The notes beneath the pieces were generated by a model that was given only the letters and a program-made list of their open reading frames with translations, searched no databases and was not told where the DNA came from. Positions 7,862 through 12,543 of a stretch of 51,744 bases of DNA are shown here, in pieces. Positions within the stretch are counted from its first letter, which is position 1. Each line of letters begins with the position of its first letter. Made by a program: the position numbers and the translations under genes. Origin of the DNA: [Eubacterium] cellulosolvens LD2006 (GTDB lineage: Bacteria > Bacillota > Clostridia > Lachnospirales > Lachnospiraceae); contig NZ_JHXY01000023.1 in assembly GCF_000621585.1 (NCBI RefSeq), forward strand, positions 1 to 51,744, in the 5' to 3' direction.

Positions 7862-9112
7862 TCAATAACGAAGCAGTTCCTCAAATACGCGAACCGCATA
7901 CCGGTCTGTCATACCGGAGATGAAATCAATGATGCACTGTATGTAGTCCCGCGGAGATTCCAGCCTTCCATAGATTTTCCGGTTCTTACAGACCACAGCA
8001 ATATCCGTAAGTTCCCTCTCGCTCGCCGGAATAACTTCCGGATCGCAGTATCTGGCCAGAAATCTGGCAAACGATCCGAAGAGTTCCGGACAGTACCTCT
8101 GGGCCCCGCGAAGCCTGTCCCAGGTTCCGCGCTCGTCATACATCTCCAGAAGGGCACCGAACAGTTCGTTGATCACAAGTTCTGTATAATGCGTATAGGG
8201 TTTAAACCGCTGATGTCTGTAAATGTTATTATAATTAAAATTCTTGAGAGCATTCATCTGCTCATTGAACGCGGGACTCAACGTAATCCCCGTCTCCGGC
8301 GTGCTGTTCTCACAGATGTCGATGATCAGATTATGCATAATCACTGTGGTATTATAGACGTTCGCGTCGTGGACTCTGGCCATGTCCAACAACTGCTGCT
8401 CGGCGCGCTTGCTGAGAAAGCCCAGCGATCGGGCATCCTCGATATCTCGCCCGATGTACGCAATTTTGTCTGCAATTTTGACGACACATCCTTCCCACGT
8501 AACCGGCGAATACTGCCCCGGACTCTGAAAATCGCTTTCCAGACAGATGATCTCTTTTCTCGGGCAGAGCCCGTTTTCATCCAGTTCTCCGCAGTGTGAA
8601 ATGATTCCGTCGCGTACCGCATAAGTGAGATTCAGATTCCTCTTCTCATTGTAGTTATCCGCAAGAAGTTCAATATTGTCCACAAAACGCAGACCGTTTC
8701 GCTCATGCCAGAAATCCTCCCCGAGATGTTCCGTCGTGAGCTTCCGAAGAACAACCTCTCCCTGATGTCCGAAGGGAGCATGTCCGAGATCGTGTCCGAT
8801 CGCAATCGCCTTCGTCAGCTCTGTGTTAAGCCCGAGAAACGACGCGATGGTTCCCGCTACGGATTCCACGTGAGCCACGTGCTCCATCCTGGTACAAATG
8901 TGATCGTTGTCGATATTGTAAAAGACCTGCGTCTTAAACTTCAGCCTGCGATACGCCTGCGAGTGAAGAATCCTTGTATAATCCCTTGCAAAAGGGCTCC
9001 GCACATCGTCCGACCGGTTATACAGACCGTCCTGTCTTACAATCATTTCCTCCCAGAGCGGATGGCCGGGAACCGCAGCCTCCCCGGAAAAGCATTTTTC
9101 ATTATGAGGCAT
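7862..9112 (-). CDS. dgt: Deoxyguanosinetriphosphate triphosphohydrolase-like protein
   Basis: This 416-residue HD-domain protein should cleave dNTPs, classically dGTP, to deoxynucleoside and triphosphate. The HD metal site is visible: His78/His81 in RMEHVAHV, then the His-Asp pair in GHDLGHAPFGHQGE (about 106-119), followed by a conserved RF.DNIELLADNYN-type segment. The start at 9112 (MPHNEK) is chosen because GGAGGAATATCG directly precedes it; a longer frame upstream has no such site and overlaps a terminator. It is convergent with the GT2 gene and lies downstream of the XRE regulator, separated from it by a terminator. Confidence 0.92.
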   Translation of the reverse strand: MPHNEKCFSGEAAVPGHPLWEEMIVRQDGLYNRSDDVRSPFARDYTRILHSQAYRRLKFKTQVFYNIDNDHICTRMEHVAHVESVAGTIASFLGLNTELTKAIAIGHDLGHAPFGHQGEVVLRKLTTEHLGEDFWHERNGLRFVDNIELLADNYNEKRNLNLTYAVRDGIISHCGELDENGLCPRKEIICLESDFQSPGQYSPVTWEGCVVKIADKIAYIGRDIEDARSLGFLSKRAEQQLLDMARVHDANVYNTTVIMHNLIIDICENSTPETGITLSPAFNEQMNALKNFNYNNIYRHQRFKPYTHYTELVINELFGALLEMYDERGTWDRLRGAQRYCPELFGSFARFLARYCDPEVIPASERELTDIAVVCKNRKIYGRLESPRDYIQCIIDFISGMTDRYAVRVFEELLRY

Positions 9113-9204
9113 CGATATTCCTCCTCTCCGATCGATGATTCCGCGCGCCCTTTCAGAGAACCGGAGCACACGGTTCCGATCTATTTCCATTGTATAACAA
9201 AAGA

Positions 9205-9240
9205 GAGGCGGAAAAAATGATTTCTCATTTTTTCCGCCTC
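9205..9240 (-). terminator. Terminator after the XRE regulator
   Basis: GAGGCGG (9205-9211) plus an A-run pairs with a T-run plus CCGCCTC (9234-9240), with only four unpaired loop bases. On the minus strand CTTTTGTT follows. It separates the XRE gene (end 9285) from dgt (start 9112). Confidence 0.75.
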
Positions 9241-9284
9241 TTCTTTGATTCAGTATCCGGTTCACGGCAATTCCCGTTCCCCGT

Positions 9285-9635
9285 TTAATCTTCTTTCCAC
9301 ATCCTTACAGTGCGAAGAACTTTATCCTTCATATTATCCGGAATCCTTGACAGAACGTTCTGCAGCTTTCTGTCCAGATCGGTAATAATGTATTCATCCT
9401 TCTTGCCTCCGACGATCTCATCGAACGTCATTCCTGTAACCTTCGCGAAATAGGAAAGCAGTCGCAGCGACGGAACCGTACGGTTGTTCTCGACATTGCT
9501 GATGTAGCCGGGAGTGACGTTCAAATTCATTGCTACTTCTTTCTGGGTCATTCCGGACTTGATTCTCATTTCCCTGACTTTAGCGCCTAGATCATCAAAT
9601 TCGAACTCCGGGTCTCCAATCGTTTTCTTCTTCAT
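9285..9635 (-). CDS. XRE-family helix-turn-helix regulator
   Basis: 116 residues with a lambda-repressor-type HTH at about 15-72: REMRIKSGMTQKEVAMNLNV, then TPGYISNVENNRTVPSLRLL, a textbook helix 2-turn-helix 3 with the usual Tyr-x-Ser-x-x-Glu contact helix. The C-terminal ~40 residues are charged and predicted helical (DRKLQNVLSRIPDNMK), probably for dimerisation. On the minus strand TATAAT (9673-9668) is a likely -10. The gene is divergent from the noncoding RNA, with about 340 bp between starts, so it may control that RNA; this is position-based inference. Confidence 0.88.
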   Translation of the reverse strand: MKKKTIGDPEFEFDDLGAKVREMRIKSGMTQKEVAMNLNVTPGYISNVENNRTVPSLRLLSYFAKVTGMTFDEIVGGKKDEYIITDLDRKLQNVLSRIPDNMKDKVLRTVRMWKED

Positions 9636-9942
9636 CTTGTATGTCTCTCTTTCTTCCCCACAGATGCATTATACAAGTTTAAAGCCGGACACCCCGTTCC
9701 ATCTCCGATACTTTCTATTCTTTTCTACACCAAACGGAACAGTTTAGCAATATGATTTTTCGGAATAGTAATATTTTGTGTAATGTGTCTATAAATATGG
9801 ATCAATTATGGGGTGTCTCTTGGTGTTTACCTGTAAAATTAAATCGATATTCATACAACTCCTTTTTGTCCTTTCAAATTGTGTCTTCGCCACAAAATAT
9901 TCTGACTATTTGCATTTATTTTTATTTTTTTCAATTTTCTTA
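9636..9942. promoter_or_regulatory. AT-rich intergenic region between XRE gene and ncRNA
   Basis: No gene is seen. GTGTCT occurs three times within about 100 bp, and TTGTG-tcttcgc-CACAA near 9884-9901 forms a small dyad. These could be operator sites for the divergent XRE protein, but the pattern is weak. Confidence 0.35.
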
Positions 9943-9971
9943 TTGACATATCGTCGCAGATTCAGTAAGAT
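9943..9971 (+). promoter_or_regulatory. Promoter of the hairpin-array RNA
   Basis: TTGACA (9943-9948), a 17-nt spacer, and TAAGAT (9966-9971) with TATAAC overlapping just beyond it. Upstream is a T-rich tract (9915-9940) like an UP element. Transcription would begin near 9978, immediately before the first hairpin of the array. Confidence 0.6.
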
Positions 9972-10053
9972 ATAACCATCAAAAGAAATTGATACGGATA
10001 TAAAGATCCAGTCATTTCTTGAGAGCGTACACTTTTTTAAGGAGGACGGTCCA

Positions 10054-10083
10054 TTGGGACAAAGAATCACATCCCGGAGGTAG
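10054..10083 (+). CDS. Possible nine-codon ORF in the 5' part of the ncRNA
   Basis: AAGGAGG (10039-10045) is followed after 8 nt by TTG and eight more codons to a TAG (MGQRITSRR). The ribosome site is strong but the start is TTG and the peptide has no recognisable features. It may be a ribosome-binding decoy or chance. Confidence 0.2.
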   Translation: MGQRITSRR

Positions 10084-10837
10084 CTTATCCTTCATAATCT
10101 AAGAGCCAAGTATCAGATGTAGAGAAAGGCTCCGGTCAAAGAAAGGGTATTATAAAGAATATCCTGACCAACCGAGAATGATGGCAGCAGATGATTTGTC
10201 CGGAAAGATCATCGAAAAGCTAAATTCTAATGAGTGATCTGCTAGAGCTAAAGATACTCGAACGATCATGCATGAAAACGAGGGCTACGATTTCACATTT
10301 CATGAGTACGAAAAACAGAAGGAACATTAAGGTTCCCGAAGAAGAGTTCATACCCGGCAAGAAAAGAAGCGAAGTCCAAAACGATAACATGAGGATTAAT
10401 AAAGTAATCCTGCTTATCGGAAAAAGATACAGAAGGTTAATAAAGTAACCCGAAGATCAAAAAGAATCCATAACAGTTAATAAAGTAACCGTTAGGATAC
10501 AAACAAGCGGATCTGATTAATTAAGTAATCAAGATGCAAATATGAAAGAAGATTAATAAAGTAATCCGAATCATAGAAATCACAGAAGGTTAATAAAGTA
10601 ACCGGAAGATTAAAAGAAATCCATCGACAGTTAATAAAGTAACCGTCAGGAAAGAATGCAGAAATGATTAGTTAAGTAATCGTGAAGCTTGGACTGAGTT
10701 AAGAATAGGAACCCGGGAATTATATCAAATCAAGAAGGATTAATAAAGTAATCCGTAAGAGAAGATAAAAAAGTGAAATAAGATCCGGAGATCAAAAACC
10801 TGAAAAGTGAATACATAATGAATCAGGAGGTTATACA

Positions 10838-10861
10838 GTGAAGCTTCAGGATATTCATTAG
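10838..10861 (+). CDS. Possible seven-codon ORF ending at the ncRNA terminator
   Basis: AGGAGG (10825-10830) and a 7-nt spacer precede GTG, giving MKLQDIH and a TAG whose last base touches the terminal hairpin at 10862. An overlapping ATG frame (10818-10841, MNQEVIQ) ends on the same GTGA. The spacing is ideal for translation, but peptides this short cannot be called from one sequence. Confidence 0.2.
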   Translation: MKLQDIH

Positions 10862-10903
10862 AAGGGCTGTGATTACGCTAATAAAGTAGCAATCACAGCC
10901 CTT
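10862..10903 (+). terminator. Terminal hairpin of the ncRNA
   Basis: AAGGGCTGTGATT (10862-10874) pairs perfectly with AATCACAGCCCTT (10891-10903). Its apex is GCTA-ATAAAG-TAGC, the array motif again. Only CTTTCACATT follows on the plus strand, so the T-run is poor; the stem could also act on the minus strand for the M18 gene. A second dyad, CGGAAAAC/GTTTTCCG, lies at 10914-10939. Confidence 0.55.
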
Positions 10904-11067
10904 TCACATTGTCCGGAAAACGCTCCCACATGTTTTCCGAACCTCCTCACCCTCACTTCGCAAATGCATCGAATCGTATAAACAGTTCATCCTGCACGTA
11001 ACTTCGTCGCGCGGTCCGCTTCATAAAACAAGCGAATCTTATCATCTGTTCAATCACGGCGGATCGG

Positions 11068-12456
11068 TCAACGGATCTCCGGGATTTTCGTCTTATAGAA
11101 GTTCTCGGCAAACGTCTCCAGATATTCCGGATCCTTACTTCCGGCCGTCTCATAGGATGAGTGCATCGCCAGCTGCGCCAGTCCGATATCCACACTTCTC
11201 ACCGATACCTGGGTATTCGATATATTCCCCAGGGTTGATCCTCCGGCCATGTCGGCTCTGTTCACAAATTTTTGCCACGGGATCTTATTTTCCTCACACA
11301 GCCAGGTAAAAATTGCCCCTGACGCACCATCTGTCGTATATTTCTGATTTGCGTGATATTTCACCACGATTCCCTTATTCATCTCCGGTCTGCACACAGG
11401 ATCTGCCTTGTCCGGATTGTTCGGATGTACCGCATGGGCGTTGTCAGCAGACACCATCAGACTCTTTGCCAGAATTCGTCTTAAATCTCCTGCGCTCCAG
11501 TCCAACGCTTCAGCAATGCGCACCAGTGTATCTGAGAGAAACGTCGACTGTGCCCCCTGCCTGGACATAGACCCCGTCTCTTCGTTGTCAAACACACAGT
11601 GCATCATCATGATTGAATCGTCACCCTTTTCCCTGTTTTCGCAGCCTCCCTCGCGGTCTGCGGCGCACTTCAAGGAATCATACCTTGCGGCCGCGTCGAG
11701 AAAGCCGAGAAAGCTGCTGTAACAACATTCGAGGTCATCCAGCTTCGGCGCCGAGAGAAACTCTTTATTCACTCCCCAGATCACCGGCTCTGACCGGTTC
11801 ACCAGATACAAATCCGATCCGATGATATCCGCTGCCCGATCTTTTCCGATTCCGCAGTTTTCTGCAAGCCACTCCGAAAAAGTCAGGGACGCCGAAGATT
11901 CCTCTCCTGTCGCCAAAGCCCACAGCGGAGGCATGTCCTTCTGTATATTGATCGACTGCTCAGAATTCGCCGTTCGATTCATATGAATTGCGAGAGAGGG
12001 AATGATCAGCGCATCCCGATCAAAGCTGATCAACTTCTCGGTGATCCCTTCTTCTTTGTCCCGCAGAAACAGGCGCCCTGCTATACCGAGCGGACGGTCA
12101 AACCAGGTACTGCAGAGCATACCGCCGTATCCCTCGATATTCAAACGGATGGTTCCGCCTGCGCTCTTCATCTCCGGATCCGGTTTGATCTTGAACGTCG
12201 GCGAGTCGCTGTGGGTGGCAATCATATGCAATTCTCCCACTGAAGCAGAGATCTCCGGCACAACAAAGGAAATAATCGAAGAATGATTCCTCCGGACGAA
12301 ATACTTCCCGCCGCCTTCAAGCTTCCATCGCTCCTCCTCCCGAAGCTCCGTAAAACCGGACTCCTCCAGTTCTTTTCTGAGTTCATCAACCGCATGAAAG
12401 CAGCTCGGCGATCTCTTTATATATTCGCAAACCTTCTGCACAGTGTCTTTTATCAT
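11068..12456 (-). CDS. apeB: M18 family aminopeptidase (aspartyl aminopeptidase)
   Basis: 462 residues, matching the family. This cytosolic zinc peptidase removes N-terminal, often acidic, residues. Metal and catalytic motifs are present in order: THSDSP (81-86, zinc His), DDLE (about 240-243, bridging Asp), DNEETGS (290-296, catalytic and zinc Glu), and the late SADNAHAVHPN and KYHANQKYTTDG segments with further ligands. ATG at 12456 is chosen for GGAGG five bases upstream; the frame extends 29 codons further without such a site. It converges on the ncRNA. The gene upstream on the same strand (PHP) is 131 bp away and probably separately expressed. Confidence 0.93.
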   Translation of the reverse strand: MIKDTVQKVCEYIKRSPSCFHAVDELRKELEESGFTELREEERWKLEGGGKYFVRRNHSSIISFVVPEISASVGELHMIATHSDSPTFKIKPDPEMKSAGGTIRLNIEGYGGMLCSTWFDRPLGIAGRLFLRDKEEGITEKLISFDRDALIIPSLAIHMNRTANSEQSINIQKDMPPLWALATGEESSASLTFSEWLAENCGIGKDRAADIIGSDLYLVNRSEPVIWGVNKEFLSAPKLDDLECCYSSFLGFLDAAARYDSLKCAADREGGCENREKGDDSIMMMHCVFDNEETGSMSRQGAQSTFLSDTLVRIAEALDWSAGDLRRILAKSLMVSADNAHAVHPNNPDKADPVCRPEMNKGIVVKYHANQKYTTDGASGAIFTWLCEENKIPWQKFVNRADMAGGSTLGNISNTQVSVRSVDIGLAQLAMHSSYETAGSKDPEYLETFAENFYKTKIPEIR

Positions 12457-12543
12457 TTCATCCTCCATAATCCGGGGCAGATTGAGTCCACCTGTATAGC
12501 TCTCGCGAAATACCCCGGCGCATGCGACGGGGTTTTCGGACAC

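Follow-up and report, generated by a model that had tools for sequence, protein, structure and literature searches.

What kind of molecule is encoded by a stretch of DNA in which one six-base loop recurs thirteen times along a single strand? The locus lies in the window (the whole 51,744-nucleotide stretch of DNA analysed here) among ordinary flanking genes (7862-9635 and 11068-12543) for an HD-domain dGTPase-like protein, a helix-turn-helix regulator and an M18 aminopeptidase, and the aminopeptidase gene is convergent with it. The preliminary description took it to encode an RNA that acts as a sponge for a protein, by analogy with CsrB, or for complementary RNAs. Here we examine the hairpins, the relatives of the RNA in other genomes, and the features that these relatives have in common.

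The hairpin array and its RNA

The sigma-A-type promoter reported earlier (TTGACA-17-TAAGAT) is present on the + strand at 9943-9971, with TTGACA at 9943-9948 and TAAGAT at 9966-9971, and promoters of the same type occur in relatives. A CodY-like box, AATATTCTGACTATT, lies at 9896-9910 (+ strand) with three mismatches to AATTTTCWGAAAATT, its centre some 40 nt upstream of the -35 hexamer. The proposed RNA runs from 9978 to 10904 (+ strand), the 5' end being placed from the promoter and the 3' end from a terminal hairpin at 10862-10904 (+ strand). This hairpin begins directly after the stop codon of a short ORF, its stem covaries among homologues, and it is terminator-like apart from a weak U-tract (TTTCACATT) on its 3' side. 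Folding of the whole RNA lies 8.3 standard deviations below shuffled sequences (n=20). Together, promoter and terminal hairpin support the RNA as an independent unit.

Recounting the hairpins between 9978 and 10906 gave 13 on the + strand with the loop [AG]T[AT]AAG (RUWAAG) on a stem of at least 4 bp, the loops being ATAAAG in ten, ATTAAG in two and GTTAAG in one, exactly as first described. Over 500 first-order Markov shuffles the mean expectation was 0.038 and the maximum 1, and the minus strand of the same interval holds none under the same criteria. The count takes in the hairpin inside the long terminal hairpin (loop at 10881-10886), which does carry the motif as claimed. All lie on the + strand: hairpin 1 at 9996-10009 (GGAT-ATAAAG-ATCC), hairpin 2 at 10144-10165 (AGGGTATT-ATAAAG-AATATCCT) and hairpin 3 at 10321-10336 (GGAAC-ATTAAG-GTTCC) precede a core array of hairpins 4-11 at 10392-10683, spaced 36-41 nt apart with loops starting at 10399, 10440, 10480, 10520, 10556, 10593, 10634 and 10671; hairpin 12 follows at 10737-10754 (GGATTA-ATAAAG-TAATCC), and the sister locus described below has the compensatory stem GAATTA/TAATTC there. 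The 12-mer TTAATAAAGTAA matches 16 times in the window with up to two mismatches, 10 of these inside the RNA, against 2.5 expected. Array linkers are 69% purine, compared with 63% for the whole RNA and 45% for the window strand, in agreement with the purine-rich linkers noted before.

The stems vary while their pairing is kept, and this part of the earlier account is borne out quantitatively. In a set of 26 hairpins (13 from the window and 13 from sister locus L003; 18 distinct, the units being mutually related), 88.9% of stem cells are paired against 53.2% in shuffles, with covariation scores of 0.843 and 0.199 respectively; neither observed value was reached in any of 500 shuffles. All six stem pairs vary on both sides, a measure that on its own was reached in 93 of the 500. 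The data support the conclusion that structure and loop, rather than a primary repeat sequence, are kept in the array.

With the whole region as query, the same-genus genome G012 alone among 60 other genomes bears the array. Its locus, L003, contains the whole unit, is the nearest relative, and is 86% identical to the window RNA. It retains 12 of the 13 hairpin places, one of them with the loop AUUAAA, lacks the hairpin at 10671, has one extra hairpin absent from the window, and differs in some stems by compensatory changes. Seven other genomes of the genus match the window RNA at its 3' end only. The array is thus the lineage-specific variable middle of one member of a wider RNA family. Repeated loops recur in that family, each lineage having its own loop on differing stems, as read in two loci: L055 (about 3.8-4.5 kb) carries a separate array with the loop GAAAACAA on stems such as CCGCA/TGCGG and CCTCTCA/TGAGAGG, and L094 has its own array of A-rich loops of 4-6 nt. 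On reading, L004-L008 and L035 show a mid-RNA hairpin, GCA-GGAG-UGC, with GGAG as its loop and with outer stem pairs that vary between loci; this hairpin was not seen in the window RNA. The array unit GGUUAAUAAAGUAACC resembles the 3' initiation region GGUUAUAAAGUGAA of paralogues.

CsrB, CsrC and RsmZ titrate a protein, and are long, independent RNAs with many short hairpins sharing one loop. The window RNA is likewise long and independent, with many short hairpins and one common loop, and thirteen equal loops on covarying stems are what would be expected if RUWAAG loops bound and titrated a specific RNA-binding protein in the same fashion; the one-loop arrays of L055 and L094 on different stems point the same way. 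Unlike those of CsrB, the window loops (AUAAAG, AUUAAG, GUUAAG) contain no GGA. CsrA scored over the cut-off in only 3 of 20 carriers of the family (G000, which is the window's genome, G012 and G142; one more fell below it), and the remaining 17 lack it or have it below the cut-off. It is present in both array-bearing genomes, G000 and G012, which are close relatives; the four same-genus carriers without the array that were tested (G002, G004, G008 and G011) yielded no CsrA. None of the 20 carriers encodes Hfq. A literal CsrA sponge and an Hfq sponge are accordingly disfavoured as the function of the family, and the CsrB analogy, taken literally, fails at that level. A protein sponge of some kind is possible for the window's lineage, and as an explanation for the RNA we regard it as unlikely, given that the array occurs in two of the 61 genomes searched and that loop sequences vary between lineages.

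The same loops could instead pair with target RNAs. Repeated identical loops would suit multivalent kissing interactions, and both the linkers and the loops of the terminal hairpins (77% purine over 54 distinct loops) are purine-rich and could act as antisense sequences. A loop of just six A/U-rich bases, which moreover differs from lineage to lineage, makes this improbable.

A phage or plasmid element was also considered and rejected, similar DNA being absent from the phage and plasmid records searched. The array alone was used as a query against viral contigs only. By motif counts, the viral contigs L015, L016 and L017 hold two copies of TTAATAAAGTAA each, about 52 nt apart. Viral contigs gave three matches to the 3' motif introduced below, all of which start frames of more than 10 codons.

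A 3' module shared by an RNA family mainly of Lachnospiraceae

As a general account the loop array does not hold, since relatives of the window RNA share ribosome-binding sites and micro-ORFs instead. In the window, the conserved 3' module occupies 10825-10861 (+ strand): AGGAGG, the 7-nt spacer UUAUACA, and GUG-AAG-CUU-CAG-GAU-AUU-CAU-UAG, predicted to encode MKLQDIH. A long hairpin follows at once, and the peptides predicted in relatives include MKLLEIH, MKLLDIH, MKLLELH and MKLQDIH among others. This ORF (10838-10861) is one of two micro-ORFs in the window RNA that lie behind a full Shine-Dalgarno sequence (SD), AGGAGG. The other is at 10054-10083, within a unit at 10040-10083 (+ strand) reading AGGAGG, ACGGUCCA, UUG and so on, for MGQRITSRR and a stop. 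The RNA is therefore not simply non-coding.

Rfam 15 yielded no match in the region at gathering thresholds, and a lax search only matches far below threshold; the proposed RNAs of 18 related loci gave no Rfam match either. We found no description of such an RNA family in the open-licence PMC literature, where single mini-ORFs, STAB-SD and protein sponges are treated; this agrees with the earlier statement that no described family with this loop array was known. The ROOL, GOLLD and OLE families are included in Rfam. They resemble the window RNA in being long bacterial RNAs, one of them named for a rumen source, and differ from it in that the window RNA has no Rfam match and consists of simple tandem hairpins and micro-ORFs (PMC12286853). 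The portion of PMC6429828 consulted deals with uORFs and sORFs and does not mention Lachnospiraceae. The RNA family thus appears to be undescribed, and its identity as a family is secure.

A model of the 3' module found matches at E < 1e-6 in 15 of 150 genomes of the bacterial family, one per genus; a further 17 had weak matches, which were left out of the count. The window's own genome gave two, the window and a second copy at G000:C4:184380-184471 (L028, L163), which has the peptide MKLTEYT, a CodY-like box with one mismatch, and, on reading, no RUWAAG array. Up to three copies were seen per genome. The search across the class returned any match in 22 of 196 genomes, a rate like that of the weak matches within the family; these comprise the window's genome, two others of its family, one strong match outside it and 18 weak ones outside it. 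When read, L172 (4e-6) and L187 (3e-10) look genuine, and L187, which lies outside the family, is a probable member; L188 was rejected, as it reads as a coding region plus terminator. The sets of 150, 196 and 397 genomes used here are samples of larger groups, and with the strict filters these frequencies are lower bounds. The RNA family is mainly one of Lachnospiraceae. In L009, a Clostridiales-1 RNA (RF01699, 124.5 bits) occupies 755-917 of the same locus as a short family member.

Scanning genome contigs with GAGGTTATANAGTGAARCT gave at least 117 stretches. Organisms were named for 80 of them and are mostly Lachnospiraceae, with other Clostridia/Bacillota, except for L042, L070 and L093, which lie outside these groups and were dismissed as chance matches. 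Among the cultured carriers, Eubacterium ramulus ATCC 29099 is the source of L106 and Faecalicatena contorta that of L059. Among the matches listed, 111 sites in 108 loci have the 3' motif with a frame of at most 10 codons, L093 and sites with longer frames having been dropped. The ORF encodes 7 amino acids at 90 of the 111 listed sites and 8 at 19. In 101 of them the stop codon marks the start of an exact 7-bp inverted repeat, a feature that shuffles show in 6; by eye, eight of the remaining ten have interrupted stems and two (L043 and L054) have no stem. The 3' module is thereby shown to consist of a predicted SD-led ORF of 7-8 codons, of the MKL....H type, abutting the terminal hairpin. Members were found through this module, so that its universal presence is partly by construction. 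In the minimal family, no element other than the terminal hairpin was found to covary.

The SD before this ORF contains GGAGGU in 57 of the 111 listed sites and AAAGGAGGU in 29. Pairing with the whole 16S tail was rejected as a general feature, as the full complement UAGAAAGGAGGU occurs at one site only; the commonest long form, AGAAAGAGAGGU (33 of 111 sites), is one base longer than the full complement. The tail GGCTGGATCACCTCCTTTCTAAGGA was read in three of five related genomes, and this pattern was not found in the window's assembly. The extended SD sites of Staphylococcus aureus (PMC13009471) are similar in pairing beyond the SD core, in their varied starts and in serving small ORFs; they differ in belonging to ordinary genes or leader peptides, while full 16S-tail complements are rare in the present family.

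Several observations bear on whether the peptide itself matters. Identical heptapeptides are encoded from GUG-AAR-CUU and AUG-AAA-UUA versions of the ORF, that is, from different codons and starts, and 63 of 85 distinct ORFs have His as the seventh residue. The AUG-AAA-UUA version was found at 11 sites in 8 of 397 family genomes, against one site for a reversed control pattern, and all 11 have a promoter and a post-stop hairpin; most also have the SD-GUCC modules described below, L210 being without. Among 41 pairs of sequences one base apart in codons 4-7, 16 differ synonymously where 20% would be expected, a modest excess among non-independent pairs. The 3' ORF thus seems to be selected as a peptide as well.

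These features make a tiny mRNA the main rival to the reading that we favour below. The heptapeptide (MKL....H) would be the product, a signal or regulatory peptide, and the micro-ORFs and arrays would do no more than stabilise its transcript. L132 and L149 have little else between promoter and 3' module, and mini-ORFs or bare SDs are described as protecting RNA (PMC8708949, PMC7509114). Weighing against this view, the ubiquity of the module follows from how members were found, its first three codons are fixed by the search patterns, positions 4-7 of the peptide vary, seven residues are too few for a signal sequence, and arrays of one-codon ORFs are left unexplained. We judge it to be a serious competitor, if a somewhat unlikely one.

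Start-stop modules

In many members, the stretch from the promoter to the 3' ORF contains additional strong SDs, arranged as GGAGG-N-GUCCA-AUG, the stop coming after one or two codons; the predicted products are M-K, M-Y, M-A, M-G and M-R. With identical modules counted once, 106 of 118 reach a stop after 1-2 sense codons when read in the start frame, compared with 17 and 5 when the frame is shifted. When the set was extended to 125 RNAs, start codons were present in 125 modules, of which 116 have the stop at codon 2 or 3, compared with 19 and 4 in the shifted frames. These counts show that immediate in-frame termination is under selection. The first micro-ORF of the window has the same SD-GUCCR-start form as the family module, yet runs for nine codons.

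A further 17 modules have no start codon; 14 of them keep the in-frame stop where the other modules have it, while the two shifted frames give 3 and 0. These modules come from few, related loci and are not independent. Start-less SD-GUCC loci are L172, L174, L202-L209 and L211 (L206 = L167, L208 = L168, L202 = L170), with AAA, AAG, ACA, CCA or AUC at the start position and an in-frame UAA two or three codons on. Sixteen such modules were checked upstream (15 of the 17, the misses L129 and L065 being left aside, and an additional one from L172), and 10 have no in-frame start there.

The number of strong SD start-stop sites detected per RNA ranges from none to nine, and in each of L130 and L137 at least seven AUG-UAC-stop units follow one another at intervals of about 54 nt. 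When micro-ORFs are defined more loosely, 79 of 99 RNAs contain one or more internally and in the other 20 none was detected; the total of 149 micro-ORFs compares with 32 in shuffles, so that about a fifth could be due to chance. Start-to-start spacing (n=149, sites within 10 nt merged and the figures standing without a shuffled control) is below 45 nt in 8 cases, 45-50 nt in 5 and 50-60 nt in 55, and is at least 50 nt in 136. Such spacing looks like one ribosome per site and would fit separate footprints. A hairpin around the start has partial support: the GGAC partner of GUCC is present in 27 of 80 cases against 8 expected, while GACC sites are at the chance level (3 of 16 against 3.5). On reading, a second recurrent micro-ORF, M(K/R)GR(D/G)P-stop, has its own SD in L047, L057, L097, L106, L152, L202 and L206. 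Proline before a stop codon is a slow context for termination.

Lambda bar is a two-codon minigene. The family modules share with the minigenes and mini-ORFs treated in PMC8708949 a strong SD, a start, one or two codons and a stop; they differ in that the family RNAs have no gene behind, carry up to nine detected sites each, and in some cases lack a start codon. An SD, a start, one or two codons and a stop occur above chance in the family, a form from which the nine-codon first ORF of the window departs. The mini-ORFs of the LEE1 ler leader and of axe-txe are described as acting in cis before a gene (PMC8708949). STAB-SD and other ribosome-binding stabilisers (PMC7509114) are similar in that a strong SD binds ribosomes and no protein is made; STAB-SD protects the mRNA that follows, whereas the family transcript has no coding gene after it.

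SgrS/SgrT and RNAIII/hld are dual-function sRNAs, stand-alone RNAs with a small ORF. The present RNAs resemble them in being stand-alone and carrying a small ORF, and differ in that their ORFs have 2-9 codons and are repeated along one RNA.

Proposed ribosome docking and nutrient status

Of 112 candidate sites, 99 are preceded at a distance of 90-920 nt by a near-consensus promoter, where chance would give about 20 at this looser threshold, and a stricter threshold gives 81 of 108 loci against 0.4 in shuffles. CodY-like boxes with up to three mismatches to AATTTTCWGAAAATT occur in 61 of 91 upstream regions (96 before near-identical ones were collapsed), against 4.7 in shuffles. Allowing up to four mismatches gives 78 boxes, and the centres of 38 of these share a single 10-nt bin that lies upstream of the -35 hexamer by about 40 nt. 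CodY is encoded in all 20 carriers, the carriers being the genomes examined for it. We infer that the family promoters may be under CodY control. The comparisons show that a typical predicted member has a strong promoter, often with a CodY-like box, SD-start-stop sites, a variable middle and the 3' module.

An ORF that runs up to a terminator-like hairpin is the classical form of an attenuator, and 59 of 92 loci are followed by a gene in the same orientation, as would suit a cis-acting leader in which the micro-ORFs served as leader peptides. We disfavour this reading and consider it very improbable: the RNA is not a leader because 33 of 92 loci, the one in the window among them, have a convergent gene next downstream (median 34 nt away), and co-oriented genes begin a median of 168 nt further on.

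The explanation that we favour, at a probability of about 0.42, is that these RNAs dock ribosomes under nutrient control. It is preferred because of the strong SDs, the immediate in-frame stops, the footprint-like spacing and the lack of a gene behind. We propose that every strong SD would be a docking site for 30S or 70S particles, which would begin translation, terminate nearly immediately and perhaps begin again. One RNA would thereby occupy several ribosomes, as a ribosome sink or hibernation-type RNA; alternatively, the RNA may be kept alive by its parked ribosomes. CodY would make docking respond to nutrient status. In this view the array of 13 hairpins would be a lineage-specific expansion of the middle, with regular short hairpins and A/G-rich loops and linkers, and may offer sites to a further partner or merely space and protect the docking sites. 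A more ambitious proposal is that the family represents a new class of regulatory RNA, in which CodY-controlled strings of SDs with immediate in-frame stops, some start-less, would park ribosomes and a heptapeptide ORF would stand at the terminal hairpin; this we put forward as speculative, with rather less confidence than docking itself.

Some of the evidence runs counter to docking. Well-formed sites number just two in the window RNA, and the first of them runs to nine codons; one must also account for the 20 RNAs in which no internal micro-ORF was detected. The rarity of full 16S-tail complements before the 3' ORF and the partial support for a hairpin around the start weigh the same way. 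The start-less modules are odd under a translation model, and the apparent conservation of the peptide suggests that the product may matter, which argues against pure docking. In the axe-txe system of E. coli, minigenes provided in trans are reported to have been without effect and without toxicity (PMC8708949).

If ribosome docking is correct, many gut and rumen Lachnospiraceae would devote a strong promoter to RNAs that occupy ribosomes and make no protein, which would be a new way of tuning translation to nutrients. The family offers a natural series of one-codon ORFs, start-less SDs with in-frame stops and a conserved seven-codon ORF, which makes questions of initiation, termination and the minimal gene directly testable. 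Even with the peptide as the product, genes of seven residues in stand-alone RNAs would be unusual.
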